Positions 2,959 to 62,317 of a stretch of 64,000 nucleotides of DNA are shown here, one piece after another. The position numbers and the translations under genes are program-made. Every line of letters begins with the position of its first letter. The first letter of the stretch is position 1. Source of the DNA: Nitrospirota bacterium (GTDB lineage: Bacteria; Nitrospirota; Nitrospiria; SBBL01; JAADHI01); NCBI GenBank assembly GCA_029261155.1, contig JAJDBW010000021.1, positions 1-64,000 on the forward strand, read 5' to 3'. The notes under the pieces were generated by a model that searched no databases, was not told the origin of the DNA, and worked only from the letters and a program-made list of their open reading frames with translations.

Positions 2959-3056
2959 CACGTTTTTCTGACCCGATAAACGAAAAAGGATCCGTCTCGA
3001 CACGCTTTACCGGATTCTTCACCCTGGTGTTTTAATCGGACCGACTGCGTGTGGGT

Positions 3057-3224: not shown

Positions 3225-3264
3225 TTTGATATTCCTCCATGTTGTTGTACGACCTGTTTGTAAA

Positions 3265-3714: not shown

Positions 3715-3743
3715 AATCAGTGTTCCTTTTTAATCGAAACGTT

Positions 3744-4489
3744 TTACTCGCCCTGCCTTTGCCGGACCACTTCGTAGGCGACAATGCCCACGGCGATGGA
3801 AACATTTAAGGAGGCCACACGACCCAGCATGGGGAGGACAACCGTTTCGTCGCAGTGTTCCAAGACGCCGCGCCGAATGCCTTTGCCTTCGCCCCCCACG
3901 ACAATTGCGATTGGGCCGGTATAATCGTATTTTACATACGGGGTTTTTCCTTCGACGTCAAGGCCCACGATCCAAAAGCCCGCTTTCTTGAGTGTTTCAA
4001 TGGCCGTTGTCATATTGGTGACCCGGGCGACGGGGAGATGGGCGAGGGCCCCCGCAGAGGTCTTCGCAACCACCGGGGTCAGTCCGACCGCCCGCCGAGA
4101 GGGAATGACGATGCCGTTTCCCCCGGCCGCATCGACGGTTCGGATAATCGCCCCAAGATTTCGCGGGTCTTCGACCCCATCGATTAAAAAAAGGAAGGGC
4201 GGCTTGGGTCCGCGCTGGGCGGCTTCAATCAAGGGCTCCAATTCGAGATAAGACTGCACGGCCAGCACGGCCACAATACCTTGATGCTTGGGCGTCCCCG
4301 CCATCCGATCCAGAAAGATGCGTTGACTTGAAATTAGGGCGATCCGGCGTTGCTTTGCCAAGGCCCGGATTTCATCCATGTCCTTGCTGCCCTTGCCCGG
4401 CAAAAAATAGATTTTTTCGAGTTGGGCCGTTTCTGAACGGAGGGATTCACGAACCGGGTTGATCCCGTAAATGACGGACTCTTCTTTTG

Positions 4490-4493
<4 letters not shown>
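3744..4493 (-). CDS. rlmB: 23S rRNA (guanosine-2'-O-)-methyltransferase RlmB (SpoU/TrmH family)
   Basis: A 249-residue SPOUT methyltransferase. The N-terminal substrate-binding part begins IYGINPVRESL. The C-terminal knotted domain carries the three family motifs: PRNLGAIIRTVDAAGGNGI (motif 1), VVGGEGKGIRRGVLEHCD (motif 2) and LPMLGRVASLNVSIAVGIV (motif 3), which bind S-adenosylmethionine. RlmB methylates the ribose of G2251 in the 23S rRNA peptidyl-transferase loop; a tRNA Gm18 relative cannot be fully excluded. The ATG overlaps the cysS stop codon in an ATGA arrangement, so translation is probably coupled to cysS, a common bacterial neighbour pair. Confidence 0.9.
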
Positions 4494-5967
<1,474 letters not shown>

Positions 5968-5974
<7 letters not shown>

Positions 5975-6690
5975 GGTCTTTCTTGGAGCGCTGCTTTTCC
6001 TTCCTCCTCGTCCCAGCCCAAGTCGCCGAGTAGAGGGACGAAGGCACAGGCGGTGAGCGCAGTTTCCTCGAGTCCGGTTTTTGATTTTACGATGCGTTTT
6101 AAAACTTGCGAACGGCGCGTTCCGACAGGGATGACCATTCGACCGCCTTCCTTGAGTTGATCGACCAGGGCCTGAGGGACCTTGGGGCCTCCGGCTGCAA
6201 CGAGGATGGCATCGAAAGGAGCGGCCTCTTTCCAACCGAGGGTGCCGTCGGACAAACGAAATGTGACATTGTCGCAGGCCAAGCCCGCAAGACGATGCTG
6301 CGCCTTTTCGAACAAGCCTTTCAGCCGCTCCACTGTATATACACGGGCGCTTAGCCGTGAAAGAATCGCCGTCTGGTAGCCCGATCCGGTGCCAATTTCC
6401 AAGACCTGCTCCTTGCCGAGTAGGGCCAGTCCTTCCGTCATTAAGGCGACAATATAGGGTTGTGAGATGGTTTGCCCTTCGCCAATGGGAAGGGCGTTGT
6501 CGTCATAGGCCTGGTTTTGGAGGGTCGGTTCGACAAAGCAATGTCGTGGGAGGCTTCGCATAATGTCCAAAACGCGTGCGTTCCGGATTCCTCTTGGGAT
6601 CAGCTGTTCTTCCACCATGCGGTGGCGCGCCTCTTCAAAGCGGGACACGGGAGGCTCCCCTCCCGCCTTCTTCAGACACGATTTTAACAA
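5968..6690 (-). CDS. pcm: Protein-L-isoaspartate O-methyltransferase
   Basis: A family-typical Pcm of about 225-240 residues, which methylates isoaspartyl residues and so starts repair of aged proteins. Motifs visible: RMVEEQLIPRGI, RHCFVEP, ALPIGEGQTISQPYIVA, the SAM-binding VLEIGTGSGYQTAILS, and a C-terminal FVPLLGDLGW. The longest frame starts at a TTG (6690); a GTG 14 codons on (before SRFEEARHRM) fits the family start better, so the true start may be 6648. The stop codon lies within the cysS start region. It is the first gene of the pcm-cysS-rlmB run. Confidence 0.92.
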
Positions 6691-6889
6691 AAAGACGAAT
6701 CACGAAGTTGATTGTAACTGAGCAGGCAAGGCATTGGCAAGGCCTCCTAGCGGACTCTGAGGCGAGGTGATATTTTGGGGTTAAGCTCAGATTTTCGTCC
6801 GAAAATCGCCAGGGTGTGCAAAACATGATATCGGTCATATGGGGCGTGCGCGGCGGAGAATATGTTTGGAAGAAGTGAGCCATCTAGGC

Positions 6890-6926
6890 AAAAAAAAGAT
6901 CCTCCAAATACGGAGGATCTTTTTTA
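6890..6926 (-). terminator. Rho-independent terminator after rplT
   Basis: A perfect inverted repeat GATCCTCC ... GGAGGATC with a 6-base loop is flanked by A7 on the left and T6 on the right, so it can work in both directions. It lies about 20 bases after the rplT stop and ends the thrS-infC-rpmI-rplT operon; it would also shield pcm from that transcription. Confidence 0.88.
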
Positions 6927-6945
6927 GGGTTCATCTATAATGGTT

Positions 6946-7311
6946 TTAGCTTGCGCCTTCGGCTTGCGGCGAAATGGATTGGACGATTTGAGCAAATCCT
7001 GCCGGATCATGGGCGGCAATTTCCGCAAGGACTTTTCGGTTTAATCCGATGCCGGCCTTTTTCAGGGCTTCCATAAATCGACTGTAGCTCAAACCGTGGC
7101 TTCGCGCAGCCGCATTGATTCGTGCGATCCAAAGCCGCCGAAAGGTGCGTTTTTTGTTTCGACGGTCGCGGTAGGCATAGAGGCCCGATTTATCAACCGC
7201 TTCTGTCGCTGTTCTAAATAGTTTGCTTTTTGCCCCGTAGTATCCCTTCGCCATTTTCAGGCGGGCTTTACGCCGATGCCGGGTCTTAGGGCCTCCTTTT
7301 GCTCTTGGCAT
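6946..7311 (-). CDS. rplT: 50S ribosomal protein L20
   Basis: A 121-residue very basic protein with the L20 signature throughout: [58 protein letters not shown] and [15 protein letters not shown]20 binds 23S rRNA domain I early in assembly and in many bacteria represses its own operon. Gene order infC-rpmI-rplT is the classic one. It ends just before a strong terminator. Confidence 0.97.
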
Positions 7312-7364
7312 GTGAATTACTCCTTAAAAAACGACTTAATAATGGATCTTTAGTTTGTGTGAAA

Positions 7365-7568
7365 TTAACGAATATAGGGCAGGGCACACCGAATGGCTCG
7401 AATTTCTCCTTTAAAGATCACAGCGAGGCCGCTCATTTTTCGCTTCCGTTTTGAGGACTTGTGGCTTAGCATGTGTCTTTTTCCGGCCTTACGACGGACC
7501 AGCTTTCCGCTTCCGGTGAGCTTAAAACGCTTTGCCGCACCCCGGTGCGTTTTTAATTTCGTTTTCAT
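7365..7568 (-). CDS. rpmI: 50S ribosomal protein L35
   Basis: A 67-residue basic protein starting [22 protein letters not shown] with the L35 pattern [20 protein letters not shown]. It starts one base after the infC stop codon region and is followed by rplT 53 bases later, the usual IF3-L35-L20 operon. Confidence 0.96.
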
Positions 7569-7569
7569 T

Positions 7570-8121
7570 CTATGCTCCTTTTGCCGATTTGGGGGCCAAA
7601 ATCATAATCATATTACGCCCTTCCATTTTGGGAGCATACTCCTGTTGGCCTACATCTTCAAGCTGTTTTTGAATTTCGGCTAGAATTTCCCAGCCCTTTT
7701 GTCTATAGGCCATCTCTCGGCCTCGAAACATTAAAGTAACCTTCACCTTGTTTCGCTCCTCCAGAAACTCCCTGGCATGGTTAATTTTAAAGGCAAGATC
7801 GTGTTCACCGGTATAGGGGCGAAGCTTCACTTCTTTGAGGTGTCCACCTTTTTGGTTTGATTTTAGGGTGCGTTCTTTTCTGCTCTGTTCATATTTATGT
7901 TTTCCCAAATCCATAATTCTGCAGACCGAGGGGACTGCAGTCGGTGCGATTTCGACCAAATCGAGGCCGTGCTGGATGGCTTTTTCCAGGGCATCGGAGG
8001 AGGACATGATGCCGAGCTGTTCTCCTTCGGGTCCGATCACCCGGACTTCGTTTGCTCGGATATCTTTATTGGCGCGCATTTTGGGTGCGGCGGGTGGTTT
8101 TCGTTTATCTCGTAGTGCCAT
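7570..8121 (-). CDS. infC: Translation initiation factor IF-3
   Basis: A 183-residue IF-3, which keeps ribosomal subunits apart and checks the initiator tRNA and start codon. The N-terminal domain ([43 protein letters not shown]) and C-terminal domain ([32 protein letters not shown]) are both complete. The start used is an ATG with an adjoining GGAGGAG, not the rare AUU/AUC codon through which E. coli IF-3 controls itself, so that form of autoregulation seems absent; a shorter version starting at [11 protein letters not shown] is possible. It follows thrS by 9 bases. Confidence 0.96.
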
Positions 8122-8130
8122 TCTCCTCCA

Positions 8131-10044
8131 TTAGTTTGAATGTGGGTATTTGACCTGTGCCTTAATCTGTTTGAGGCAGATTTCAAGCGGAACGACGGTG
8201 CTTTCCCCATCGCGGTCTCGAATGGAGACGGTTCGTTCCTCCGCTTCCCGGTCTCCGACAATAAGCATGTAGGGTGTTTTTTGCAACTGCGCTTCCCGGA
8301 TTTTTAGGCCCATCTTTTCGTTTCTGTGGTCAACTTCACTGCGGATGCCTGCTTCGCGAAGCTGTTTGTGGAGCGCATCGCCATAGGCTTTTTGGCGTTC
8401 CGTAATCGGAATAACGAGGGCCTGAACGGGTGCAAGCCACAGGGGGAAGGCCCCAGCGTAGTGTTCTATCAAGATGCCAAAAAAGCGTTCGATGGAGCCC
8501 AGCAGGGCCCGGTGAATCATGATGGGTTGATGGGCTTGGCCGTCTTCGCCCCGGTAAGTCATCTCGAAGCGCTCGGGCAGATTAAAATCGACCTGAATGG
8601 TGCTGCATTGCCAGGAGCGGCCGAGGGCGTCGCGAATTTTCATGTCGATCTTGGGGCCGTAAAACACGCCTTCCCCCGGATCGATTTGGTAGGGAAGGCC
8701 CTTTTGTTTGAGTGCGCCTTCCAGCGCGGACGTGGCCTGTTCCCAGCGTTCGAGGTCGCCGACGTATTTTTCGGGGCGGGTCGAAAGGTAAATATCATAC
8801 TCTTCGAAACCAAAGGCCTTCATGACAAAGGTGGTGAAATCGAGGACCTTCAGTATCTCTTCTTCGATTTGTTCGGGTCGGCAAAAGAGATGGGCGTCGT
8901 CCTGGGTGAAGCCGCGCACACGAAGCAGTCCGTGCAGCACGCCCGAGCGTTCGTAGCGATAGACCGTGCCCAATTCTGCCCAGCGGAAGGGCAGGTCACG
9001 GTAGCTGCGCAGGGCGGTTTTGTAGATTTGGATGTGGAAGGGGCAGTTCATCGGCTTGATTTCGTAGGCCATTCCCTCGACCTCCATGGGCTCGAACATG
9101 TTTTCCTTGTAAAAGTCGAGGTGGCCGCTTTGCTGCCATAAATCGAGCTTCGCCATGTGGGGCGTGAAGACCAGTTCGTACCCGGCCTTTAAATGTTCCT
9201 CGCGCCAAAAGTCTTCCAAGATTTTCCGGATGAGCGCGCCTTTGGGATGCCAGAGGATGAGTCCGGGTCCCACCTGATCGGAAATCGAAAACAGGTCGAG
9301 GGCCTTGCCGATTTTCCGGTGGTCGCGTTTTTTGATCTCTTCCAGGTTTTTGAGGTGCGTGTCGAGGGCTTCCCGTGTGGGAAAGGAGGTGCCGTAGATG
9401 CGTTGCAGCATCTTGTTTTTCTCATCCCCTCGCCAATAGGCCCCGCCGGTGGAGAGCAGCTTGATCGCCTTGATTCTGCCTGTCGAATAGACGTGTGGGC
9501 CGGTGCACAAATCGATAAAATCGCCTTGGCTGTAGGCTGAAATGGGGGGCGTATCGAGTTCCTTGATGAGCTCTACTTTGTAGGGTTCGTCCCGGTCCGT
9601 GAAGAGTTGAATGGCTTCGTCCTTGCTCAGCTCCATACGGGAGACGGGCAGATTCCGCTTGAGAATCTCCTTGATCTTTTTCTCGATCGCCTTGAGATCT
9701 TCGGGGGTAAAGGGCCGCTCGAAATCGAAATCGTAATAAAAGCCGTCTTCGATCGCCGGGCCGATGGTGACCTTTGCCGTCGGAAAAACCTCTTTCACCG
9801 CCTGCGCCATGATGTGGGCCGAACTGTGGCGGTAGACTTCTTTCCCTTCCGGAGAATCGAAGGTGAGCGGGGCAATTTTGGCGTCTGCCTCCGCAACTGC
9901 GCCAAGGTCTTTCGGCACGCCGTCGACCACCACGGCGATGGCCTCTTTGGCCAGACCCAACTTTTTTAAGATGTCGAAATATGGCGTACCGGTAGGAACC
10001 GTTTCAGTTTGACCATTGATCCGAAGGGTAAGGTCTTTTTTCAA
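8131..10044 (-). CDS. thrS: Threonyl-tRNA synthetase
   Basis: A full-length (637-residue) class II synthetase. Domains in order: N-terminal TGS domain (about 1-62), the editing SAD domain with [20 protein letters not shown] and the zinc/editing residues (about 63-225), the catalytic core with [40 protein letters not shown] and the motif 3 region [11 protein letters not shown], and the C-terminal anticodon-binding domain from about 540. It charges tRNA-Thr and clears mischarged Ser. It heads the operon with infC, rpmI and rplT. No T-box leader or operator hairpin was recognised upstream. Confidence 0.97.
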
Positions 10045-10293
10045 GAGTGGCCTAGTCGGGTGAAGGGGGTCAAGCAGTTAATAGAGCAAATCTCCTCGGA
10101 TTTGTGGGAAATATTTTGTATACACTGCAAAGGAAATTAATATGAAAAGATACCATAAAAAACCCTTTGCGGCGGTTTTGAGGTTGCTTCTTAATCGATT
10201 TTCTTTATTGGTTTTAACCGTGGAGGTGGTATGAAAAGGGGGGTCAAACACGGGGTGTTTTTTTTTATCGATCACATAAATCCAGATTAACGG

Positions 10294-10368
10294 TGGTAGG
10301 CACGGGCGGTTTTGAACCGCCGACCTCTTGCGTGTCAAGCAAGCGCTCTCCCCCTGAGCTACGCGCCT
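10294..10368 (-). tRNA. tRNA-Val (anticodon GAC)
   Basis: The reverse strand folds as a full cloverleaf of 75 bases: acceptor AGGCGCG pairs with CGTGCCT (one G-U), U8-A9, D arm GCTC/GAGC, anticodon arm CTTGC-TTGACAC-GCAAG with anticodon GAC, five-base variable loop, T arm GGCGG-TTCAAAA-CCGCC, discriminator A and an encoded CCA. GAC reads the valine codons GUC and GUU. It lies upstream of thrS on the same strand. Confidence 0.93.
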
Positions 10369-10446
10369 TCAAAAAAAAAGGTGAAATAATCGTATTCAAA
10401 TAGAAAAGACTTGTCAAGAAAAAAGGGGGTGACCCTAAGAAATGGC

Positions 10447-10475
10447 TTGACAGATTTTGAAAAAATATTTAGGAT
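10447..10475 (+). promoter_or_regulatory. Sigma-70-like promoter for the PEP-CTERM gene
   Basis: A perfect -35 box TTGACA, a 17-base spacer and a -10 box TAGGAT (4 of 6 to TATAAT) stand about 145 bases before the next gene on this strand. The long leader holds no open frame that I would call. Prediction by consensus only. Confidence 0.5.
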
Positions 10476-10619
10476 TCACAACTTGAAATCCGATTTTATT
10501 TTGAGGCGGCGCATAAGATTGCCTCTCTGGTTATTCCTTTTGGGTCGATGCGTTTTTATAAATATGAGCGAAGGTTTGAAGTAGATCCCCCACCCTAAAT
10601 AAAAGCCCGGAGGCGTTTC

Positions 10620-11291
10620 ATGAAGCGTAGACGACAAGATCCTAGCCTGAAGATCCGTTTTTTTACCGGCGTGTTCATGACCATTTTGTTTTTTTCGAGC
10701 GAAGTCTCGGCAATTCCTCTCTTTATCAACGAAATTCACTATGACAACGCGGGGGGAGACAGTGGTGAGGCGGTTGAAATCGCCGGTCCTGCAGGAAGTA
10801 ATTTAACGGGTTGGCAGCTGGCGCTCTACAACGGGAATGGGGGCGCCACTTATGGTTCAACGGCCTTATCCGGTATTATCCCCAACCAGCAGGCGGGTTT
10901 TGGTACCTTGTTTTACCCCATCTTGGGCATACAAAATGGTAGCCCCGATGGCCTGGCCTTAGTCGATTCGAGTAACACCGTGGTGCAATTCCTCAGTTAC
11001 GAGGGTACTTTTACTGCAACAGACGGTCCGGCAAATGGATTGACGAGTACGGCGATCGGGGTTTCCGAATCGAGCGGCACGCCGGTCGGTCATTCGCTTC
11101 AGTTGGGCGGAATTGGCCTCATCTATAGCAATTTTTTCTGGGAAAACGCGGCCCCGGGGACTTTTGGCGCTTTGAATACAAACCAGCAGTTTAGAGTGGC
11201 TGCCGTTCCAGAAGCTTCCCAACTTGCCTTGATCGCTTTGGCTTTCGTCGCACTTGGATGTGCAAGCCTTCGGAAGCGATGCCGAGCTTAG
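10620..11291 (+). CDS. Exported lamin-tail-domain protein with PEP-CTERM-like anchor
   Basis: A 223-residue secreted protein. Residues about 14-31 form a signal peptide. The middle (LFINEIHYDNAGGDSGEAVE, then QNGSPDGLALVD, FLSYEGTFTATDGPANG, SLQLGG) matches the lamin-tail domain found in secreted nucleases and surface proteins, here without a nuclease domain. The C-terminus has the PEP-CTERM layout: VPEAS, about 18 hydrophobic residues and a basic tail RKRCRA, normally cut by exosortase EpsH/XrtA. The second motif residue varies (PEA in place of PEP). No exosortase gene lies in the window. GGAGG lies close before the ATG. Function is unknown; a biofilm-matrix or surface role is inferred from the sorting signal. 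Confidence 0.82.
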   Translation: MKRRRQDPSLKIRFFTGVFMTILFFSSEVSAIPLFINEIHYDNAGGDSGEAVEIAGPAGSNLTGWQLALYNGNGGATYGSTALSGIIPNQQAGFGTLFYPILGIQNGSPDGLALVDSSNTVVQFLSYEGTFTATDGPANGLTSTAIGVSESSGTPVGHSLQLGGIGLIYSNFFWENAAPGTFGALNTNQQFRVAAVPEASQLALIALAFVALGCASLRKRCRA

Positions 11292-11465: not shown

Positions 11466-12899
11466 ATGTCGGATTCCAGAAAAAAAATCGTTATTATTGG
11501 TGGCGGTATTACAGGTTTGTCGACCGCTTATTTCCTTCAAGAATCTTTAAAAAAGAAGGACCTGGCGGTGGATTGTGTGCTTATCGAAGCCGAGGGTCGG
11601 CTTGGGGGAAAAATCCGCTCAGAACGGGTCGATGAGTTTATTATTGAAGGCGGTCCCGATTCCTTCATTACCCAAAAAAAGTGGGGGGTGGAACTCTGCA
11701 GGCGCTTGGATTTGACGGATAGTCTGGTTCAAACCAATCCCATAGATAAATCTATTTTCGTTTTGTCAAAAGGAAAGCTCCAAGCCTTTCCGGAGGGTTT
11801 TAATTTAATGGTCCCCAGCCGCATGATTCCCTTCATGCTGACACCGCTGATCTCTCCGCTGGGAAAATTACGAATGGGCATGGACCTCCTGATCCCCAAA
11901 AGACAGTCGTCGTCTGATGAAAGCATTGCCGCCTTTGTTCGACGGCGCTTGGGAGAAGAGGCCGTGCAAAAATTTGCGCAACCGATCTTGGCGGGCATTT
12001 TCGCCGGGGATGCCGAAAAGCTCAGCATGCAGGCGACCTTTCCACAATTTTCCGCCTTGGAACAAAAGTACGGGAGCTTGATTAAGGGCATGCGTCAGGC
12101 CCGGGGAAAAGCCCAAGGCCCGACCCCCTCAAAACCGGCATTGTCCCTTTTTGTGACGCTCCGTGAGGGCTTATCGAGCTTGCCTTTAAAAATTCGAGAA
12201 AAATTAGATGAGGTGGAAATTATAAGCGGTCAAGCCGTAACTGCAGTGGCGCGCGTCGACCATCGTTATGCGGTTGATGTGGGACCTTCGCGACTTTTTG
12301 CCGATGCGGTTGTGATGACCACGCATGCCCACCGTGCGGCGGAATGGATCGTCGGGTGGGACCCTCGGCTTTCAGATCTGTTAAAGGCCATTCCCTATGT
12401 GTCGACTGCGACTGTGTCGCTTGGCTTCAAGAAGGCGGATGTTCCACATGCCTTAAAGGGCTTCGGTTTCGTGGTGCCGCGCCAAGAAGCGTGTACGATT
12501 ATGGCCTCGACCTGGAGCTCCACAAAATTTCCAGGGCGCGCGCCGAAAGATCATGTGCTGATTCGTACGTTTTTGGGTGGAGCGGGTCGGGGAGACCTTG
12601 TCGAACGAGAAGATAAAGACCTCGTTGCGCGCGTTCGAGAAGATCTTCGAAAAATTCTGGGTATTGTGCCGGAGCCAGTGGTCGCCAAAGTTTTTCGGTG
12701 GATGAAGGCCAACCCACAATATGCGGTTGGGCACCTAGATCACGTGGGTAAAATTGAAAAGCAAACGGAAGCACATGCAGGACTTTATTTAGCGGGTGCA
12801 GCCTATCGCGGCGTAGGCATTCCAGACTGTATCGAACAGGGGATGCGAACTGCCGAAAAAATTACGACATGGCTGACTGCGGGCCGGATGACAGCTTGA
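11466..12899 (+). CDS. hemG: Protoporphyrinogen oxidase (HemY/PPOX type)
   Basis: A 477-residue FAD enzyme that oxidises protoporphyrinogen IX (or coproporphyrinogen in the HemY branch) to the porphyrin, late in haem synthesis. The dinucleotide-binding fold KIVIIGGGITGLSTAYFL is at the N-terminus, followed by the PPOX pattern EAEGRLGGKIRSER, EGGPDSFITQK, FAQPILAGIFAGDAEKLSM, and the C-terminal FAD contact GLYLAGAAYRGVGIPDCI. HemY and classical HemG differ in kind; this one is the FAD amine-oxidase-like type, and the symbol is used loosely. The gene stands apart from other haem genes, but it may supply porphyrin for the cytochrome at 0.6 kb and is relevant to the PCP_red cassette at 52-57.6 kb. 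Confidence 0.93.
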   Translation: MSDSRKKIVIIGGGITGLSTAYFLQESLKKKDLAVDCVLIEAEGRLGGKIRSERVDEFIIEGGPDSFITQKKWGVELCRRLDLTDSLVQTNPIDKSIFVLSKGKLQAFPEGFNLMVPSRMIPFMLTPLISPLGKLRMGMDLLIPKRQSSSDESIAAFVRRRLGEEAVQKFAQPILAGIFAGDAEKLSMQATFPQFSALEQKYGSLIKGMRQARGKAQGPTPSKPALSLFVTLREGLSSLPLKIREKLDEVEIISGQAVTAVARVDHRYAVDVGPSRLFADAVVMTTHAHRAAEWIVGWDPRLSDLLKAIPYVSTATVSLGFKKADVPHALKGFGFVVPRQEACTIMASTWSSTKFPGRAPKDHVLIRTFLGGAGRGDLVEREDKDLVARVREDLRKILGIVPEPVVAKVFRWMKANPQYAVGHLDHVGKIEKQTEAHAGLYLAGAAYRGVGIPDCIEQGMRTAEKITTWLTAGRMTA

Positions 12900-47402: not shown

Positions 47403-49892
47403 TTAACAGCAGTCCGTTGACGAACAGGAGTCTGCGTCTTCCGAGGCCTTGGCCTTGATGACAGACGCTTCCCCTTGTGTGATCACGAAGGCCTGTTGGT
47501 AAGGTGGCTTTTGTAGTTTCGCCGCCGTATCGGTGCACACCTGCACGGCTTGATTCCGAGGGAAGAGATGGCCTTCCTCATCCACGACGGCTTGCATGGG
47601 GCCCAGGTAGGTTGCCCATTGTCCGACATAGTTGCAGCTCGCCTTTTTTTCGAATTTGTAGCCGCGAATAACTGCGGAGTAAAACCGGTAGCCTTCCACT
47701 TCTTTCCAAAGGGTTTTTTTCAAAATGGAGAGCCCGTAGAAGCCGGCCTGTTCGAGCTTCGCCAGATATTCCTTTTCGGTCAGCGCCCCCGAGACGCATT
47801 CTCCCCAAAGGCGTGGATTGGCCTTCATCCCCTCGGGCAGGGCCTGTTCCGTAATGGTATCCGAGATAACGATGCGCCCGAAATCTTTCAAGACGCGCCA
47901 AATCTCGACGAAGACCTGTTTTTTATCGGGGGAAAGATTGATAACGCAATTCGAGGTGACCAGATCGGTAAATTGGTCCGGCAAGGGGATTTCTTCGAGA
48001 TAGCCCTTTTTGAATTCGACATTGGCATAGCCTAGATTGGCCGCGACGATTTCTCTCGCCGCGTTGGCTTGACGCAGCATCCGATCGGTCATGTCGATGC
48101 CGACGACACGGCCCCTGGGCCCGACTTTTTTGGCGGCGATAAAACAGTCGATGCCACCGCCCGAACCGAGATCAACCATGATTTCACCTGCTTTGAGGCC
48201 GGCCAGATCCACCGGGCTGCCGCAGCCGTAGGAAATTTCCAGGACCTCCTTGGGGATGTGGTCGCTACCGTCCAAGGGATAGCCCTCGGGGCAGCAAAGT
48301 GCGGCCTGTGGGGTTTCGGCCGCATCTCCGTAGAAATCGCTGACGACGCGGCGGGAGTGATCGAGATCGACCGAGAGGACACAGGCCGAACGCGAGAGCG
48401 AAACCGCGAAGCCGCCAAGGGTTTCGACGCCAGGACGGGGGCTGTCTAAAACGGCATCGTCCCCCATGGCGGCAAAAATGACCGGCCGGTCATAGCCGGA
48501 GGCGGTTTTCTGCCGGGCCTTGGCCTCCGCGCGAGAAAATAAAATATCCAATATCCAGGCTTCGTAAAAATCGGAGAAGGGGTCTTCGCCCAAAAATCGA
48601 CCGCTGTATAAGTAGCTGTGTTCAATATCGCCGCCGCCGCAAAGGAATTTTAGATAACAGTCTTTACATTTCGCCTTATTTTGCACGGTCGCTTTACGAA
48701 TCGATTCAGCCAGAGGCGCGTTTTTCCATATGGCCTCAAGACTTTTTTCCAAAGTACTGCCCAAACTCAGTTCAGGAATCCCGGCCAGGGCCGCCGTCGG
48801 GTAGACTTGCGCGTCCGCATACACGCAGAGGGATTCGTAGGCCGCGTTGGAGAGATCGACCTTTAGATGCGATGGTCCCATTAAGCTGCCCATCAACACA
48901 TCGTGATTGTCGAAGCTGAGGCCCAGGGCATCCGTCGCCGCCTTGCTGCGTTTGAAGGCTTCGAGCAAGGCCGCAGTCGAAGGGGGCGCGAGGGTATCCG
49001 ATTCGAGGGCACGGCCTCGGTGATGACTCAGCAGGAGATGGAGATTTTTAATGCCGAGCTTTGAGGCGAGATGAACCATGTCTTCGAGATGCGCGACATT
49101 CGAGCGATTCACGACCGTGGTGAGGGTGGGAGAAAAACCGAGGCCGATGGCTTCTTTGATGCCACGGATGGTCGCGTCGAAGGTTCCGTTTCCCCGCATG
49201 GCATTGTTGATTTCGGCCGTCGGCCCGTCCAGGCTGATTTGGAGCTGCAGGCGGTTTGGATCGCAGAGGGATAATTTCTTGAGGTGTTCTCCACGAAACA
49301 GCATGCCGTTGGTCAGGATAATCAATTCCGCCTTCGGTATCTCAAGGATATGGTCGATGATTTCGAAGATGTCGTCTCTTAAAAAGGGTTCGCCGCCCGT
49401 AATGTAAAAACGCGATGTTCCCAAGGCCTGGGCTTGATCGATGATATTTAACCAAAACGCCGTGTCTCCACCGGGGATGCCGCTGGGCGAAGAGCTGACC
49501 AGGCAATGGCTGCAGCTGAGGTTGCAGGCATTGGTGACATGAAGCCATAGTTCACTCAAGCGGCCGGGGCGGAGGACTTCGGCGCGGCCGGGATAGGGGG
49601 CCTTCGTTTGGGATTGCGTCGAGATGAATTTCTTGCCGAGCGCCTCCTCGAAAAAACTGTGGCAATGCAGCCAGGCCTTGGCCCAGTCCATGCCGTTTTC
49701 TCGGGCGTAGGTTGCAACGAGATCGCCGAAGGTTGTCTTCCCATCCAGCTTGCGAATCAAGTCGGCGCCTTGGGCGTCCGTCGCAATCCAATGGGGCCCT
49801 TCCGGATCGATTAAAAGTCTGAGATTTTGACGAGAGATCTCTCGGTAGAGGGGGACGAAAAATCGACTGTCGTTTGCAATGGCTTCAGTCAT
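47403..49892 (-). CDS. PqqD-like - radical SAM/SPASM - ArsM-type methyltransferase fusion
   Basis: An 829-residue three-part protein. Residues about 30-92 ([20 protein letters not shown] ... [12 protein letters not shown]) have the helix-turn-helix layout of PqqD/RiPP-recognition domains. The radical SAM core has Cys 123, 127 and 130 ([12 protein letters not shown]), the GGEPF motif and an auxiliary-cluster SPASM motif [14 protein letters not shown] near 405-425. The rest is an arsenite S-adenosylmethionine methyltransferase-like module (about 520-800): [51 protein letters not shown] and [12 protein letters not shown] carry the conserved arsenic-binding cysteines. The C-terminus ends CSSTDCC. 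It is divergent from the Crp/Fnr gene with a palindromic operator between them. No arsR or ars operon is nearby, so the arsenic substrate is likely but not shown. Confidence 0.85.
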
Positions 49893-51671: not shown

Positions 51672-51984
51672 TTGATTTTATGTTATGAATTTGTCCGCGA
51701 GGCCGTGATCCCTTCCCCTGTGGTTGATCGGCCTTCGCTCATTTCCCTTCTTCTAGACACAAAAATAGACACAAAAAGTCTCGTTTTCCTGAGTGAATCC
51801 CGTTTTTTTATCCTCGCGTACAAAATCTCCTTCTTATCCGCCTTTTTTCGTTAAATATTACGAATGTCGTTCTTGAAAAACCGGTTGTGGTTTCTGAGAG
51901 AGAATGCTATAATCTCGAAATTTTCTAAGAGGTTCCTGCAACTTCGTTTAGATAATATCGCTATAGATAGGGGAGGAATGAAAA
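51672..51984. other. 313-bp intergenic region upstream of the PCP_red cassette
   Basis: No gene is supported. A promoter-like sequence at 51885-51913 lies in it and is listed separately. No copy of the Crp/Fnr palindrome is here, so the cassette at 51985 is not obviously in the same regulon. Confidence 0.5.
51885..51913 (+). promoter_or_regulatory. Promoter of the PCP_red cassette
   Basis: TTGTGG (4 of 6 to TTGACA), a 17-base spacer and a perfect TATAAT give a predicted start near 51920 and a leader of about 65 bases that ends in GGGGAGG before the Usp gene. Confidence 0.6.
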
Positions 51985-54645
51985 ATGTATAAGTCGATTT
52001 ATATTCCGGTGGACAATTCGGACTATTCGAACACCGCCATCGACATTGGCATGTTGTTGGCAAAACAGTTCGGATCGAAGGTCATTGGAAGTCATGCTTA
52101 TGCCGCCAAGCTTCACGACCGGCGCTTCAAACAGATGGAGGCCGGCCTTCCTGAAGAATACCACGACGAAAACGAACTGGAACGCCAACGAAAAATCCAC
52201 GATTCGCTTATTACCCGCGGACTCGAAATTATTACTGACTCTTACCTCGACATCGTCGATCAAAAAGCAAGCGAGCACAATGTGCCGGTCGAACGCCGAT
52301 CCCTTGAGGGCAAAAACTACAAAGTGCTCGTTGAAGACATCGTGAAAAATGGCTACGACCTGGTGATTTTGGGTGCCCTCGGTGTCGGGGCCGTCAAGGA
52401 AAGCCTCATCGGCAGTGTCACCGAGCGGACCATTCGCCGCGTGCGCAAATCCGATATTTTTATTGTCAAAGAACCGGCTTACGCGATCCCTAACAAGAAA
52501 AAAATCGTTGTGGCCGTGGATGGCAGCCACTACTCCTTCGGCGGCTTTAAAACCGCCCTGGCCCTGGCCAAGGCCTTCGATCTCGAAGTCGACGTCGTCT
52601 CCGCCTTCGATCCCTACTATCACTACGCCGTGTTCAACTCCATTTCAGGCGTTTTAAACGAAGAGGCCGGAAAGGTCTTCCGCTTTAAGGAACAAGAGAA
52701 GCTGCACGAGGAAGTGATCGATTCCGGCTTGGCCAAAATTTACCAATCGCATCTGGAAGTCTGTACCAAACTCGCCGAAGAAGAAAATGTCAAAATCAGC
52801 ACCTCGTTGCTCGACGGCAAGCCCTTTGAAAAAGTTTATCAATATGTCCAACGTGAGCGGCCCTGGCTCCTGGTGGTCGGGCGTATCGGTGTCCACTCCG
52901 ACGAGGAAATGGATGTCGGCAGCAACAGCGAAAATCTCATTCGAAGCGCCCCTTGTAACGTTTTGGTGTCGAACAAAAGCTACATTCCACCCATCGACGC
53001 CATTGCCGAATATACGGTCGCCTGGACCGAAGAGGCTTCCAAAAGGATGGAGAAGGTGCCGATTTTCGCTCGCGGCGTGGCCAAAACGGCGGTCTATCGC
53101 TACGCCATCGAAAAAGGCTTTACGATTATTTCCAATTCGGTGGTCGATAGCGCCATGGGCGACATCCTGCCAAAGTCTGCTATCGATATGATGAAGAATA
53201 TGGGCAAGGAACTCGACGAAAAAGGCATCGACCGAAATAAGATGGTCGCCGACGACGGCGTGGCCGAATCCCTGAAAAGCGGCGGCATCGCCGGGATGAT
53301 GACCCAAATCGTGGTCGACCCGGATGCGGAGCGTGCCGCCGGTTACGACGAAAAGGCCAAGCTCGATTTTTATCTCTGCGGCGGATGCGGCTATACCGCC
53401 AAAGGCAGCCAGCCGGTGAAGTGTCCCATCTGCAGCGCCGAAGGTAGCAAATTCCAATTTATCGACAAGTCGCTCTTCGAATCGGCAGCAAAAGCCGAAG
53501 GCGGTGTGTCTCAGGAAGTCGGCTACGATGGCGTGCCGCTCAATTGGACGGAAGATGCAAAAAATATTCTGCGAAAAGTCCCGGCCGGTTTTGACCGTCG
53601 CCGCACCAAGGCCAAGGTCGAGAAAACGGCGCGTAAGATGGGCTTCCAAACCATTTCGAAGGAATTCGTGGTTCGTATTGTGGATGGCGGGCTCGACTAC
53701 ACCGATCTCGAAAATACGGACGAAGTCACCGCCAAAGAGGAAAGCGCCAAGCCCGGGCCGACCGCACCCACATTTACTTGGAGCGACGAGGCCAAGGCCC
53801 GTCTCGAAAAGGTGCCGGTGGGTTTCATGCGGGACGCCACGCGACAGCATATTGAAAATTATGCCTTTGGAGAGTCGGTCGGTCATATTACCCTCGATAT
53901 TGCCGAAGGTGGCATCCAAAAGGCGACAAAAGAAATGGAAGACGTCATGTCCGGGGCAACGAGTCTCGACGAGATTAAAAAACGGATGGCGGCGATGTCC
54001 TCTGGTGTCTCCCCCGATGTAGCCACGGAGGAAAAATCCTTCCACTTTTGTGGAATGTGCGGACATGTCGTGAATCGGGTTCCCGAAAAATGCCCGGTCT
54101 GCGAGGCCCAGAAATCGCGTTACATGTTAATGCGCGCTGAGATCGACTACTTTATCTGCATGGTCTGCAGCTTGGTGGTCGAGCAGGTGGTGCCGGAACA
54201 TTGTTCCCTCTGCGGCGCCAATGGTGAATATCACATCCAGCTTGAACGAAAAGTCCGCGATCTTGAATCGGCCCTTCCGCAAATCGTGTGGACCGAAGCC
54301 GCATCCACCATTCTCGAAGAAATTCCGGAAGGCTTTATGCGGGAGATGACCCGTTGGCGGATTGAGGCTGATGCACGCAAAAAAGGACTCTCTGAAATCG
54401 ATCCTGAGGTGGTCTCCAGTAAGTATAATCAATGGAGCCAAGTGTCCAGAAAAGTTGAACGGCACTTGCCATGGGGTGATGATGCCTTGCATCGCATGTC
54501 CTTAATTCCTTCTTTCGTGCGCGGCACCGTGGTCAAGGAGATCGAAGCCCATGCCGAAGAGCAAGGCCTGGCGCGTGTGACGGTCGAGATCCTCGATCAG
54601 GTCACCGCACGCTGGACCGAAGCCATGCGCAACCAAGGTTTCTAA
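51985..54645 (+). CDS. Usp2 - PCP_red5 - rubredoxin-like3 fusion protein
   Basis: An 886-residue protein of five kinds of module. Two universal stress domains (about 1-165 and 168-335), each with the nucleotide-loop pattern (GALGVGAVKESLIGSVTER; GRIGVHSDEEMDVGSNSEN). Five PCP_red repeats, of the type W-T/S-x2-A-x2-R/I-L-x2-(I/V)-P-x-F-x-R, start near residues 346, 520, 597, 768 and 828. Three rubredoxin-like zinc ribbons have paired CxxC motifs (CGGCGYTAKGSQPVKCPIC about 466; CGMCGHVVNRVPEKCPVC about 688; CMVCSLVVEQVVPEHCSLC about 725). PCP_red is known from the C-terminus of BchB/ChlB. The whole has no membrane segment, so it is cytoplasmic; I infer an electron- or tetrapyrrole-carrying scaffold. 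A strong GGGGAGG precedes the ATG. Confidence 0.85.
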   Translation: MYKSIYIPVDNSDYSNTAIDIGMLLAKQFGSKVIGSHAYAAKLHDRRFKQMEAGLPEEYHDENELERQRKIHDSLITRGLEIITDSYLDIVDQKASEHNVPVERRSLEGKNYKVLVEDIVKNGYDLVILGALGVGAVKESLIGSVTERTIRRVRKSDIFIVKEPAYAIPNKKKIVVAVDGSHYSFGGFKTALALAKAFDLEVDVVSAFDPYYHYAVFNSISGVLNEEAGKVFRFKEQEKLHEEVIDSGLAKIYQSHLEVCTKLAEEENVKISTSLLDGKPFEKVYQYVQRERPWLLVVGRIGVHSDEEMDVGSNSENLIRSAPCNVLVSNKSYIPPIDAIAEYTVAWTEEASKRMEKVPIFARGVAKTAVYRYAIEKGFTIISNSVVDSAMGDILPKSAIDMMKNMGKELDEKGIDRNKMVADDGVAESLKSGGIAGMMTQIVVDPDAERAAGYDEKAKLDFYLCGGCGYTAKGSQPVKCPICSAEGSKFQFIDKSLFESAAKAEGGVSQEVGYDGVPLNWTEDAKNILRKVPAGFDRRRTKAKVEKTARKMGFQTISKEFVVRIVDGGLDYTDLENTDEVTAKEESAKPGPTAPTFTWSDEAKARLEKVPVGFMRDATRQHIENYAFGESVGHITLDIAEGGIQKATKEMEDVMSGATSLDEIKKRMAAMSSGVSPDVATEEKSFHFCGMCGHVVNRVPEKCPVCEAQKSRYMLMRAEIDYFICMVCSLVVEQVVPEHCSLCGANGEYHIQLERKVRDLESALPQIVWTEAASTILEEIPEGFMREMTRWRIEADARKKGLSEIDPEVVSSKYNQWSQVSRKVERHLPWGDDALHRMSLIPSFVRGTVVKEIEAHAEEQGLARVTVEILDQVTARWTEAMRNQGF

Positions 54646-54682: not shown

Positions 54683-56068
54683 ATGGCATACCAAGCCTAT
54701 TCTGTTTCATGGAATCTCACCCAGCGCTGCAATCTGTTTTGCACCCACTGCTACATGAGCGCCTTCCCCAATGCCGATGTCTCCGGAGACTTGACGACGG
54801 AAGAATGCTTCAAGGTGATGGACGACATCGAAAAGGTGAATCCGAACGTCTTCCTGATCCTCACCGGCGGTGAGCCCCTGGTCCGGAAAGACATCTTCGA
54901 TATTGCTGGCTATGGTTCCGACAAAGGCTTTACCTGCGTGCTCGGCACCAATGGGGTGCTCATTGGCAAGACTGAGGCGCGAAAGATGCGCGAGAGTGGT
55001 CTGCAGGGGGCATCCATTAGTCTCGACTCGGTCGATCCGGCCAAGCACGACGAATTCCGCCAGCTCCCGAAATCCTGGGAACACGCCATCCGGGGCATGA
55101 ACTATCTCAGGGAAGAGGGCCTCGATTTTTCCATCCATATGAGCGTGATGGCTTGGAACGTCTCCGAGATTCCGCGCATGATTGACCTTTCCCGCAAGCT
55201 GGGTGCGAAGGTCTTGAACTTTTTCTTTCTCATCCAAACCGGACGAGGAGAAAATATCATCGATATTGAGCCGACCCAGTACCGCGAAATCCTCACCTAC
55301 TTGGCACGGGCACAAGGCGTCGGGAGTGCAGAGCACAAGGTCTCGGGTTCCCTCTTCACCGAATTTGGCGATCCTTGGACCACGCCGGCGGGCGAAAGTC
55401 ACGGACTGATCCTTCGCGCAAAATGCGCACCCCATTTTCGAAAGGTGATCTACGATCTCGATCCCGAATCGCCTCTGCTTAAAAACTATGCTCAGGGCAG
55501 TTGTCCGGCAGGAAAATACTATTGCCGCATTACGCCCTCCGGCGACATCACGCCTTGCCCTTACATGCCGGTGACGGCGGGCAACTTGCGGGAGAAATCC
55601 TTCGACGAAATCTGGCACAACTCGCCCGTGCTCAATGACCTGCGCGATCCGGTCTTGGGCGGACGCTGTGGCGACTGTGAATTCTCGGAGATGTGCGGAG
55701 GCTGCCGCTGTCGGGCCTATGCCTCGTCCGGCGATTATCTGGGTGAAGATACGGCCTGCGATTACGAGCCGGGACAATATGGCGGAGAAAAAATTACCCT
55801 TGGGGCCGAGCAGACCTTTGGCTTGGCGGTTAATTTAACTCTAAACTGGTCGGAGTCCGCACGCGCACGCTTAAAGGGTCTGCCCTCTTTTGCACGTGGC
55901 ATGGTTTCGAGAGGGGTTGAGCAATACGCCAAAGAAAATGATATTGATTGCATCACACCGGAAGTGATGCAGGTGGTTCGTGAACGCGCAGAGACGCGTC
56001 TCGGTCGCCGCTTTAATTTTACGGAATTTAATCGGGATGGGTCTGAAGTCACCCCCACTCGAAAATAA
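54683..56068 (+). CDS. AhbD/NirJ-like radical SAM/SPASM protein with C-terminal PCP_red repeat
   Basis: A 461-residue enzyme. Radical SAM cluster at Cys 16, 20 and 23 (NLTQRCNLFCTHCYM), GGEPL motif, and a SPASM region with CAPHF, CPAGKYYC, CPYMPV and CGDCEFSEMCGGCRC for auxiliary [4Fe-4S] clusters. This order is that of AhbD, NirJ and related haem- or haem d1-modifying enzymes. After about residue 388 a PCP_red repeat ([20 protein letters not shown]) is fused on. Substrate could be a tetrapyrrole or peptide; the PCP_red fusion supports the former, as inference. GGAG is 7 bases before the ATG. It lies 37 bases after the giant Usp gene and 42 bases before the PCP_red-only gene. Confidence 0.85.
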   Translation: MAYQAYSVSWNLTQRCNLFCTHCYMSAFPNADVSGDLTTEECFKVMDDIEKVNPNVFLILTGGEPLVRKDIFDIAGYGSDKGFTCVLGTNGVLIGKTEARKMRESGLQGASISLDSVDPAKHDEFRQLPKSWEHAIRGMNYLREEGLDFSIHMSVMAWNVSEIPRMIDLSRKLGAKVLNFFFLIQTGRGENIIDIEPTQYREILTYLARAQGVGSAEHKVSGSLFTEFGDPWTTPAGESHGLILRAKCAPHFRKVIYDLDPESPLLKNYAQGSCPAGKYYCRITPSGDITPCPYMPVTAGNLREKSFDEIWHNSPVLNDLRDPVLGGRCGDCEFSEMCGGCRCRAYASSGDYLGEDTACDYEPGQYGGEKITLGAEQTFGLAVNLTLNWSESARARLKGLPSFARGMVSRGVEQYAKENDIDCITPEVMQVVRERAETRLGRRFNFTEFNRDGSEVTPTRK

Positions 56069-57136: not shown

Positions 57137-57598
57137 TTGAATTTTTCTGCTGTTCTGAATCATTGGTTGCACCTCCTTTCCGTCATCGTGTGGATCGGCG
57201 GTTCCGCTTATCAAGTGTTTGTCCTCTCTCCCCTGATTAAATCGGGAGATCTCCCTTCAAAAACCCTCGTACAGATGTTGCGTCGCTTCCGGAACGTGTC
57301 CCTGGTCGCCCTTATTGTCCTGGTGGTGACCGGCGGAATTAATCTTGGCATCCGGCGTGCCGGTCATGAAAGCTTTCCGCCGGGCTATGTGTCTGCGCTG
57401 GCCGTGAAAGTTTTTTTGGTTGTGGCCATGGGTTCCGGCCTTTTAGTCGGTTATGTCCGTTCTGCCGATGACGAAAACAAAAAGGAAAGCGGATCGGATC
57501 AGTCGGCACTTCCGGGTTTTGGTACCACCAAGGTGACCTTTGCCTTTGGCATTATTGTGATTTTCTTGGCCTCAATGCTCAGGCAGTGGAAGTTCTAA
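57137..57598 (+). CDS. CopD/HemJ-like four-helix membrane protein
   Basis: A 153-residue integral membrane protein with about four helices (near residues 6-26, 52-72, 84-104 and 130-148). The first holds His 9 and His 12 in LNHWLHLLSVIVWIGG, the sequence typical of CopD-like and HemJ-like proteins, which bind haem or copper; further on it has VALIVLVVTGGINLGIRRAGHE. HemJ oxidises protoporphyrinogen with haem b as electron acceptor, CopD moves copper; which applies cannot be told. It starts with TTG (57137) 39 bases after the PCP_red gene, GGAGT in front, and closes the cassette. Confidence 0.72.
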   Translation: MNFSAVLNHWLHLLSVIVWIGGSAYQVFVLSPLIKSGDLPSKTLVQMLRRFRNVSLVALIVLVVTGGINLGIRRAGHESFPPGYVSALAVKVFLVVAMGSGLLVGYVRSADDENKKESGSDQSALPGFGTTKVTFAFGIIVIFLASMLRQWKF

Positions 57599-59691: not shown

Positions 59692-60765
59692 GTGCGTCCG
59701 CCCCATGCCATGCTAGCAAAGCTATACAGTGCCGTGCTCTATGGGGTTGAAGCCCACCCGATCGACGTCGAAATCGATTTATCGCAGGGGCTTCCTCTGC
59801 TGTCCATCGTCGGGCTTCCCGATCTTGCGGTCAAAGAAAGTAAGGACCGCCTCCGCTCCGCCATTAAAAACACCGGCTTCCATTTTCCCGTTAAAAAAAT
59901 CACCGTTAATTTAGCTCCTGCCGATCTCAAAAAAGAAGGCTCGGCCTTCGATCTGCCCATGGCCCTGGGGGTTTTGGCCGCTGACGGCGTTGTCAAAGAA
60001 GGTCGGCTCGAAAACTATTTGGTTGTTGGCGAACTCTCACTCGATGGCCGAATCAAGGCGATTAAAGGCGCACTGCCCATTGCGATTCTGGCGAAAAAGC
60101 TGGGGATGGATGGAATTATCCTACCGGCCCAAAATGGGCCCGAGGCGGCAGTGGTTTCGGGCATCAAAGTCTTGGGCATGGAGACCCTGCCTCAGGTCGT
60201 CGAATTTGCCAATGGAAATCAGGAGGTCAGCCCCGTCACCGTCGATCTCGATGTCCTCTTTGCCCAGAGTACCGACTATGCCGACGATTATTTCGAGGTG
60301 AAAGGACAGGCCCATGCCAAGCGGGCCCTGGAGATCGCCGCAGCTGGCGGGCATAATCTCCTCATGGTCGGACCACCCGGTTCGGGTAAAACCATGTTGG
60401 CGAAACGCTTCCCGAGTATTCTTCCCCGCATCGGTTTTGAAGAGTCCCTCGAGGCGACGCAGGTGCATAGTGTGATCGGCATTCTCGGCGGCAAGCATCC
60501 GCTTTTAACCATCCGGCCCTTTCGCGCCCCGCATCATACGATATCCGATGCCGGACTCATCGGCGGCGGACAGATCCCGCGCCCCGGCGAAGTCAGCCTG
60601 GCCCACAACGGCGTCCTTTTTCTCGACGAGCTTCCCGAGTTTAAACGCAACGTCTTGGAGGTCCTTCGCCAGCCGCTCGAAGAGGGGAAGGTCACCATCT
60701 CCCGCGCCACAGCATCTTTAACCTATCCGGCCCAATTCATGCTCGTCGCCGCGATGAACCCCTGA
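59692..60765 (+). pseudogene. comM: ComM/YifB (Mg-chelatase-like), 5' part, cut by an integrated element
   Basis: The first 357 of about 510 residues of the AAA+ helicase ComM, which extends heteroduplex DNA branches in natural transformation. Seen are the N-terminal domain ([41 protein letters not shown]), Walker [16 protein letters not shown], the [17 protein letters not shown] motif and LFLDELPEF. The frame stops at AAMNP, exactly where intact members continue as NPCPCG, and foreign sequence begins. The missing C-terminal third is expected beyond the right edge of the element. It starts with GTG 59692 or near ATG 59707 ([10 protein letters not shown]). The protein product is probably not functional. 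Confidence 0.9.
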
Positions 60766-62317
60766 CGTTGTGGTGCCTTCGAGTCATGTCTAAAGAGGAA
60801 GGGAGGTAACAGAGGTTGATGGTTACTTCGTCTGATCCAATGGTAATTTTTTCGACAAGGTTCTCGACGACCTTCCTCTTTTCATCCCGAACAAGAGTCG
60901 GCCACTTGGTGTAAAGGTCTTTGGCCTCGGTCAAAATCTGATCGCTTGAGATGTAGCGGATCTTTAAAAAATCGATCTCGCCTTGCAGTTGAGGGATCTG
61001 TTCTTCGAGTTGAAGCCGCCGGTCTTCCAGGGGCTGGTACTTGATGACAAACCCGTCTTTGGTGATCTTCTCATCAAACAGAAGGTTGTAGACCGTATCG
61101 ATCCCCTTTCTGACCTTGGTAAGTTCTTCCGACAGAATACGGAGTAATTTTTCCTTTTCCTTGATCTTTTGATCGGCGTTTTCCATGTAGCCGGTGATTT
61201 CTTTCGGAGAACAGAAATAGGTTTTGAGTTGTTCGTGGAAGACTCCTTCAAGGTCGGCCACGCTGATCTTGTTTCGGCAGGTGTAGCAGATGTATTTGGG
61301 TGAATTGGAGGGGACGTACATCTTGGTCTTGCAATTACAAAAGGCAACGCCGGTGAACAGATGGACGGCTTTTCTTGTCGGTGGTTTACGGTTCTTTCGG
61401 CGCTCATCCAAGATCATGTTGCACTGATCCCATAGTTCTTCCGAGACAACCGGCTCCACCTTGGTGATGACCCACTCATTTTTGGGTTTTAAGACCCATT
61501 GCTTGCCTTCTCCCAGGCTTTTTGTGTAGTTGGCTCTCCGTTCCCCTTTGGCCGTGGGATCACGAATCAGGCGCTCGATGGTGGTGTCGGTGAATTTTGC
61601 CCCTTTCCTTGTCCGGTGTCCGGCTTCGGTGAGCAGCCTTGCAACCGTCTTTCTTCTTCGGTGTTCTAAAAACATCTCAAAGATGAGTTTGCGGACCGGC
61701 GCTTCCTTGGGATCGGGAACCAACTTCCGGTGTTCATTGTACCGGTAGCCAAAGGGGGCGGCCCCGCCCAAGGGCTTGCCGAGCTTTGCCCGGATCGGGA
61801 CCGAAGCACGAATACGGGACGCGATCTCTTCCCGCTCCCATTCGGCCAAGCCCGCAATCATCGTGTAAAAGAACCTCCCAGCCGGTGTGGAGGTGTCGAT
61901 GGACTCTTGGAGAGAGATGAGATCGGCATTGTGTTGTTGGAAGAAATCAGAGAATTCCAAGAGTTCCCTGGTATTACGGGCGAGCCGGGCGACTTTTGAA
62001 AAAATAAGGCCGGTGATATGACCACTTTTTATGTCTTTGAGCATCCGCTGAGCTTCGGGATGGGAAATGACCGACTTTCCGCTGACGGCCTCAAGGTGAT
62101 AGACCTCTTTGACTTCCCAATCTCTGGAGACGACGTAGGACTCTGCGCGTTTTTGGTGATGTTCCGGGCTGTCGCCTCCGGCTTGTTCTTCGGTCGAGAC
62201 ACGAATCCAGATACCAACGTGCTTTCCTTTCGAGGATTCTTCCGATAAGAGATGTTTGCTGGAATCGCGTAAAAGCGTCGGCATGATCAAACGATTGAGG
62301 TTGTTTTCATCGTTCAT
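60737..62317 (-). CDS. Large serine recombinase (integrase)
   Basis: A 526-residue site-specific recombinase. The N-terminal resolvase domain (about 30-175) has the catalytic Ser in [11 protein letters not shown], plus [13 protein letters not shown] and [19 protein letters not shown]; then a recombinase domain ([33 protein letters not shown]), a zinc ribbon ([12 protein letters not shown] ... CYTC) and a coiled-coil region (about 385-470). It inserts an element at its attachment site, here within comM. Its stop codon lies inside comM: the last eight residues or so (RGSSRRRA) are read from comM antisense sequence, a sign that integration itself made the present C-terminus. The start [10 protein letters not shown] is uncertain by a few codons. 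Confidence 0.95.
60756..60770. other. Attachment junction (attL) in comM
   Basis: The comM reading CCC TGA replaces the usual Cys-Pro-Cys codons just after AAMNP, so the crossover lies at or just before 60764. The bases AACCCCTG are shared by the expected comM site and could hold the core dinucleotide. Exact borders need the right end. Confidence 0.6.

Follow-up and report, generated by a model that had tools for sequence, protein, structure and literature searches.

A four-gene operon in the window

The window analysed here, a stretch of 64,000 nucleotides from a Nitrospirota bacterium (assembly GCA_029261155.1, contig JAJDBW010000021.1, positions 1 to 64,000 of the forward strand), contains an uninterrupted open reading frame (ORF) of 886 codons, at 51985-54645 on the forward strand with its ATG at 51985. 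It heads an operon of four genes separated by gaps of 37-42 bases. Pfam matches above the gathering cut-off divide the product into two universal stress protein (Usp) stretches (PF00582, E value 1.5e-32), five PCP_red stretches (PF08369, E value 4e-52) and three rubredoxin-like ribbons (RUBY_RBDX, PF21349, E value 4e-13). Together with the sequence, these give the order Usp-Usp-PCP_red-Rub-PCP_red-PCP_red-Rub-Rub-PCP_red-PCP_red, an exact match to the order read in an initial annotation made from the sequence alone. That annotation also pointed to a radical S-adenosylmethionine (SAM) partner gene, which we find directly downstream. The features of the operon are as follows.

51970-51977, forward: ribosome-binding-like stretch GGGGAGGA, ahead of the ATG at 51985 (read from the sequence)
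51985-52470, forward: Usp domain 1, residues 1-162 (Pfam), with the ATP motif G130-x2-G133-x9-G143-S144
Residues 37-52: insert HxYxAxxHDxxFKxME of Usp domain 1
52498-52974, forward: Usp domain 2, residues 172-330 (Pfam), with the ATP motif G299-x2-G302-x9-G312-S313
53023-53154, forward: PCP_red 1, residues 347-390, 48.3 bits
53371-53457, forward: ribbon 1 (C465-x2-C468-x11-C480-x2-C483), residues 463-491 (Pfam)
53545-53670, forward: PCP_red 2, residues 521-562, 36.0 bits
53779-53901, forward: PCP_red 3, residues 599-639, 37.6 bits
54043-54129, forward: ribbon 2 (C689, C692, C703, C706), residues 687-715 (Pfam)
54151-54237, forward: ribbon 3 (C725, C728, C740, C743), residues 723-751 (Pfam)
54289-54417, forward: PCP_red 4, residues 769-811, 41.9 bits
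54472-54600, forward: PCP_red 5, residues 830-872, 46.6 bits
54683-56068, forward: radical SAM/SPASM protein of 461 residues with a C-terminal PCP_red (Pfam, NCBIfam)
55847-55972, forward: PCP_red of the radical SAM protein, 51.3 bits
56111-57097, forward: 328-residue protein made up of four PCP_red domains (Pfam, PCP_red model)
57137-57598, forward: small membrane protein with four helices, of the CopD/UPF0093 kind, the last conserved gene of the cluster

Each ribbon consists of two CxxC knuckles 10-12 residues apart, as in RUBY_RBDX. This C-x2-C-x10/11-C-x2-C arrangement is that of the rubredoxin domain of rubrerythrin and nigerythrin, but Pfam and NCBIfam scans of the 886-residue protein found no ferritin-like diiron domain, which sets it apart from those proteins. 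The same scans found no nitrogenase-like oxidoreductase domain, and the BchB model matches by its C-terminal part only. Of the 12 PCP_red domains listed for the genome of the window, ten lie in three genes of the operon and two in one gene on contig C1; the PCP_red survey found no BchB in this genome.

The membrane protein scores barely above the cut-off of the CopD model and reaches 19.9 bits with UPF0093, against a gathering threshold of 34.2. Fold searches returned generic four-helix bundles only, the best Foldseek match being human STEAP1 (E value 0.12). As a HemJ protoporphyrinogen oxidase, the protein is a weak candidate on sequence, its UPF0093 score lying below gathering.

Conservation and predicted fold

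The architecture of the 886-residue protein is not a chance fusion: it is conserved far beyond chance, as an alignment of 46 orthologues shows 59-80% identity and long blocks without variation. Across 88 orthologues, G-x2-G-x9-G-S is kept in both Usp domains with invariant glycines, and all four cysteines of ribbon 1 are present in 85, the remaining three having no ribbon. All eight cysteines of ribbons 2 and 3 are kept in 15 of 15 long forms. The insert of Usp domain 1, HxYxAxxHDxxF(R/K)xME, is common to the deepest forms, with Y/F and D/E variants. Residues common to the PCP_red domains are W, A, P, F-x-R, E, A, G and, at the end, I-T; with no conserved His, Cys or Met among these, we reject a role as an axial heme binder.

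An AlphaFold model of the whole protein has a mean predicted local distance difference test score of 67.9 and a predicted template modelling score of 0.42, too low for reading domain-domain contacts. Residues 1-336 of the model superimpose on Rv2623 (Z 27.1, root-mean-square deviation 3.6, 280 residues) and on ATP-bound TTHA0350 (Z 26.2, deviation 3.0, 256 residues). In its two Usp domains, the GxxG-x9-GS motif in both and the fold (Z 23-27), the protein resembles the tandem Usps Rv2623, TTHA0350 and UspE, but it differs from them in its conserved insert, its C-terminal PCP_red and ribbon modules, and its fixed partner gene.

Distribution and gene pairing

Loci were taken as the best 80 of one contig search, all of them titled Nitrospirota, Nitrospirae or a subgroup; the closest named relatives among them are Manganitrophaceae and Troglogloeales, also of the phylum Nitrospirota. 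By count from the search listing, an orthologue of the 886-residue protein occurs in 75 of the 77 Nitrospiria genomes sampled, and a match was also found in 17 sampled genomes from other Nitrospirota classes. The Nitrospiria are the class of nitrite-oxidising and comammox Nitrospira and of the manganese-oxidising Manganitrophaceae.

Wherever a Nitrospiria locus among these 80 has enough sequence, the radical SAM gene lies immediately downstream of the Usp gene (69 of 69; ORF calling showed it in 58 and tblastn in the other 11, the seeming exceptions being errors of the ORF caller). In family f10 and in genome G019, the radical SAM gene is on a different contig from the Usp gene, and in f10 the gene that comes next after Usp is the CopD-like one. 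The pair is adjacent also in ten loci of deep classes (L106-L109, L111, L112, L115-L117 and L119). Because of this synteny, the 886-residue protein and the radical SAM protein very probably work together.

Genes for MpqE and for a B12-binding radical SAM protein recur directly upstream of the Usp operon in Nitrospira-type loci (27 and 29 loci, respectively). At L073:5396-7832, both stand in this position, the B12-binding protein being related to cyanobacterial slr0320; it may be a candidate for an unassigned step of methyl-plastoquinone synthesis. In L021, HemE, recognised from its sequence, is found 2.5 kb upstream of the operon, and in L111 HemY lies directly behind the radical SAM gene.

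Stepwise forms in deeper Nitrospirota

In four deep genomes (G123, G177, G178 and G113; loci L115-L117 and L119), the protein is a plain tandem Usp of 355-389 residues adjoining the radical SAM gene. In L115 and L119, Pfam assigns PCP_red to the radical SAM protein but not to the Usp protein, and a custom PCP_red model also detects the domain in the L116 and L117 radical SAM proteins. A longer Usp protein occurs in G203, G068, G076 and G059 (L107-L109 and L112), with two PCP_red domains in L107, while the radical SAM protein of G065 (L111) has three Pfam PCP_red stretches. The form found in Nitrospirales is Usp-Usp-PCP-Rub-PCP-PCP, of about 690 residues, and the two extra ribbons and two extra PCP_red domains occur only in the order to which the window belongs. 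These forms show a build-up series, from tandem Usp to Usp with two PCP_red domains, then one ribbon, then three ribbons and five PCP_red domains. PCP_red seems to have arisen on the radical SAM enzyme first and then spread to its Usp partner; since L115 and L119 have it on the former before the latter, we read this spread as acquisition of a shared docking module.

In L115-L117 (about positions 1-11000 of each), the pair stands beside a gene for a molybdopterin oxidoreductase of 1147-1149 residues, with a Tat-type N-terminus and of NarG/NXR size, and likewise beside a CydA-like membrane protein. An unnamed protein of 217-243 residues is encoded behind the Usp gene or the pair at L107:6673-7326, L118:10326-10985 and L119:11560-12291; its split-barrel (PNPOx) match, seen in L107 and L118, is weak.

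The radical SAM partner

In the radical SAM protein, C16, C20 and C23 form CX3CX2C, and a full SPASM set of further cysteines is present (C248, C274, C292, C329, C332, C338, C341 and C359). Those from C329 to C359 form CX2CX5CX2CX17C, which is the reported motif of the heme synthase AhbD; over the last seven cysteines, the spacing agrees with the numbering of Methanosarcina barkeri AhbD to within one residue (PMC10452713). The motif given for NirJ and AhbC is CX2CX5CX20-21C, with one auxiliary cluster (PMC12505453). The AhbD-type motif is intact in 67 of 71 called radical SAM ORFs, three of the other four being clearly truncated, and in all ten deep-lineage proteins checked.

The best curated models for the protein of the window are NirJ2 (308 bits) and AhbD (298.5 bits), both well under their cut-offs, and GeoRSP and peptide-maturase models also match (149-160 bits). 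The equivalog cut-off of the AhbD model (TIGR04545) is 500 bits; it was reached in none of 39 Nitrospiria genomes, and matches to the AhbD model stand at 298-348 bits. The partner thus shares CX3CX2C with AhbD, NirJ and AhbC, and the CX2CX5CX2CX17C motif and full SPASM set with AhbD, but differs from all three in falling below every curated cut-off, in its C-terminal PCP_red, in having a dedicated Usp partner, and in occurring where coproheme is no intermediate. Radical SAM enzymes of this group depend on an external donor or acceptor of electrons (PMC10452713, PMC12505453), and the ribbon protein could provide these electrons or act as this acceptor.

PCP_red and heme enzymes

PCP_red is otherwise a domain of chlorophyll enzymes, taking its name from the BchB/ChlB subunit of dark-operative protochlorophyllide oxidoreductase (DPOR). 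Among 14 control genomes, we found it in Synechococcus elongatus only. The 886-residue protein shares with BchB/ChlB the C-terminal PCP_red of 45 residues, and the work of BchB/ChlB joins ATP to iron-sulfur redox chemistry on a tetrapyrrole; the 886-residue protein differs in having no nitrogenase-like oxidoreductase domain.

In five Nitrospiria genomes of two families (f7 and f10), PCP_red and the coproheme decarboxylase HemQ are encoded in one ORF. Four of these fusions have PCP_red at the N-terminus of HemQ:

L165:9645-10595
L167:10900-11997
L168:1072-2031
L169:4800-5747

The fifth, in G022, was recognised by an identical frame of 321 residues in the HemQ and PCP_red searches. For the L165 protein, the E values are 2e-57 with PF06778 and 1e-9 with PF08369. 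A gene for a HemY-type oxidase adjoins the fusion in L165 and L169; at the L165 site it scores over the HemY cut-off (G019:C79:109630-111018). From these fusions and the adjoining HemY, PCP_red is therefore attached to a heme enzyme within the Nitrospiria. The fusions belong to the same class as the operon and share its PCP_red domain, but HemQ is a separate enzyme and is unfused in the genome of the window.

The initial annotation had treated PCP_red as a generic part, a view at odds with the BchB and HemQ fusions, which point to tetrapyrroles.

A second type of PCP_red cluster, also conserved, combines a NUBPL-type iron-sulfur carrier with a CxxC-ribbon protein that bears two PCP_red domains and with a CADD/BesC-like diiron protein of the heme-oxygenase fold. 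It was found at three sites, with a four-PCP_red protein in L181 and L182:

L172:7750-10169
L181:8803-12356
L182:7629-10868

Other genes of the window

On the reverse strand at 47403-49892, the window encodes an 829-residue protein that joins PqqD-like, radical SAM/SPASM and ArsM-like methyltransferase parts and has a Cys-rich tail (CSSTDCC). In L165, a copy with 46% identity is found some 2 kb away from the PCP_red-HemQ gene. At 59692-62317, the window carries a ComM/YifB-like gene, of 357 residues here and 510 in L021, whose end is overlapped by a large serine recombinase gene on the opposite strand (60737-62317). The recombinase gene looks like part of an element integrated into comM.

Proposed function and alternatives

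We tentatively propose that the 886-residue protein is the ATP-gated, ribbon-wired partner subunit of a tetrapyrrole-directed radical SAM enzyme, a chain of steps that as a whole falls a little short of an even chance. The tandem Usp, with its observed motif and fold, would bind ATP and gate or sense. The ribbons, judging from their cysteines, would coordinate iron and deliver single electrons to, or accept them from, the iron-sulfur clusters of the radical SAM protein, with which the 886-residue protein would form a complex. PCP_red, which both proteins and the product of the third gene carry, may hold this assembly together and perhaps the tetrapyrrole substrate as well, as its distribution and its fusions in BchB and HemQ suggest. 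A tetrapyrrole as substrate would fit both the fusions and the cysteine motif, and the radical SAM enzyme would modify or process a heme-like tetrapyrrole in a reaction other than the making of heme b from coproheme.

A broader version is possible, though we regard it as doubtful: the Nitrospirota may have an undescribed system for processing or channelling tetrapyrroles, with PCP_red as a general docking domain of tetrapyrrole enzymes (in BchB, HemQ, the radical SAM protein, the Usp scaffold and the PCP_red-only proteins) and with the ATP-gated Usp/rubredoxin protein feeding electrons to the SPASM enzyme.

Several points weigh against a tetrapyrrole-directed role. The radical SAM protein reaches none of the curated cut-offs for tetrapyrrole enzymes, and models of other SPASM families match it as well. 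The ribbons could hold zinc. The alignment of PCP_red domains contains no conserved metal-ligating residue, and the literature searched gives no established role for PCP_red even in BchB. Most operon loci have no adjacent heme gene, and the heme b route is complete without the operon. HemY is present in 38 of 39 genomes (in the window at 11466-12899, 39 kb from the operon), HemH in 34 and a HemQ-family protein in 35, while HemF occurs in four and HemN over its cut-off in two. Three genomes that keep the operon genes without HemQ (G021, G023 and G026) have HemF, two of them also HemN. We therefore rule out the operon as the missing heme enzyme, given HemY, HemH and HemQ where they occur and HemF or HemN in lineages without HemQ.

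These data also bear on the idea that the radical SAM protein is an AhbD-type heme synthase, that is, an anaerobic coproheme decarboxylase forming a second route beside HemQ, with the 886-residue protein as its electron acceptor. The AhbD-type cysteine set, the place of the AhbD model among the best matches, and the external electron acceptor proposed for AhbD (PMC10452713) all agree with this idea. We nevertheless consider it unlikely: the 500-bit cut-off is reached in none of the 39 genomes, and the protoporphyrin route of G021, G023 and G026 has no coproheme intermediate, which would leave an AhbD activity without substrate in genomes that retain the operon.

SPASM enzymes are mostly peptide maturases, so the operon might instead belong to a peptide- or protein-modifying system or to another small-molecule cofactor pathway, with PCP_red as a neutral docking domain whose presence in BchB and HemQ is incidental. 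The GeoRSP and peptide-maturase scores, the want of ligand-type residues in PCP_red, and the pairing of the second PCP_red cluster with a NUBPL-type carrier and a CADD/BesC-like diiron protein, not with heme genes, speak for this; we judge it somewhat unlikely, as no small precursor-peptide gene was seen to recur beside the operon (the clustering covered ORFs of 110 codons or more) and the best models are tetrapyrrole ones. Quinone biosynthesis, in which the operon would provide a hydroxylation or methylation missing from the route to methyl-plastoquinone, is suggested by the upstream MpqE (over its curated cut-off) and B12-radical SAM genes, by the presence of MpqE in 39 of 39 Nitrospiria genomes, and by methyl-plastoquinones being the only quinones of Nitrospira (PMC12324825). 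In the genome of the window, however, MpqE is on another contig than the operon (C85 versus C14), and nine genomes with MqnA (G113, G123, G177, G178, G063, G068, G076, G203 and G059) carry the adjacent pair with no MpqE over the cut-off. This rules out a methyl-plastoquinone-specific role for the shared core, and we regard the quinone explanation of the operon as quite unlikely.

The initial annotation had envisaged a scaffold coupling an ATP or stress signal to electron transfer. The ATP motifs and fold, the ribbon cysteines and the tie to the radical SAM gene make a nucleotide-plus-redox partner the best reading, so that much of the idea stands; a stress signal finds no support: Usp is here the name of a fold, and the oldest members are plain tandem Usps adjacent to the radical SAM gene. 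It is highly improbable that the protein is a scaffold that senses stress or ATP and regulates electron transfer without having its own enzyme. Such a role would suit the Usp fold and ATP motif, the Crp/Fnr regulator and thioredoxin-like genes upstream of the operon in the window (Pfam), and the Crp gene nearby in L115 and L117, but near-constant pairing with one enzyme gene and a highly conserved Usp insert fit a subunit better, and clustering of neighbours found no recurrent stress gene near the operon.

Significance

Each domain of the 886-residue protein is already known; their combination, its near-universal occurrence in a class of nitrifying and metal-oxidising bacteria, and the link of PCP_red to HemQ appear to be new. 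No named family covers this form, as the initial annotation supposed, and the literature searched (PCP_red, Usp, radical SAM in Nitrospira) held no publication on the protein, its combination of domains or the PCP_red-HemQ link. The annotation had allowed that the architecture might turn out to be widespread with a known role: the first half holds for a single class, in which the architecture is a core trait, but the literature searched gives it no role. The Usp-radical SAM pair is thus near-universal in the Nitrospiria, yet we found neither a name nor a published role for it.

If the broader version is true, the system would be a functional analogue of the ATP-driven electron relay of DPOR, built from unrelated parts. 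The proposal itself, if right, would link universal stress proteins to the electron supply of a radical SAM enzyme and give PCP_red a function outside chlorophyll synthesis. The stepwise forms make the role of each added module testable. For the organisms themselves, which depend heavily on heme enzymes, the proposal would point to a hitherto unknown heme-type pathway.

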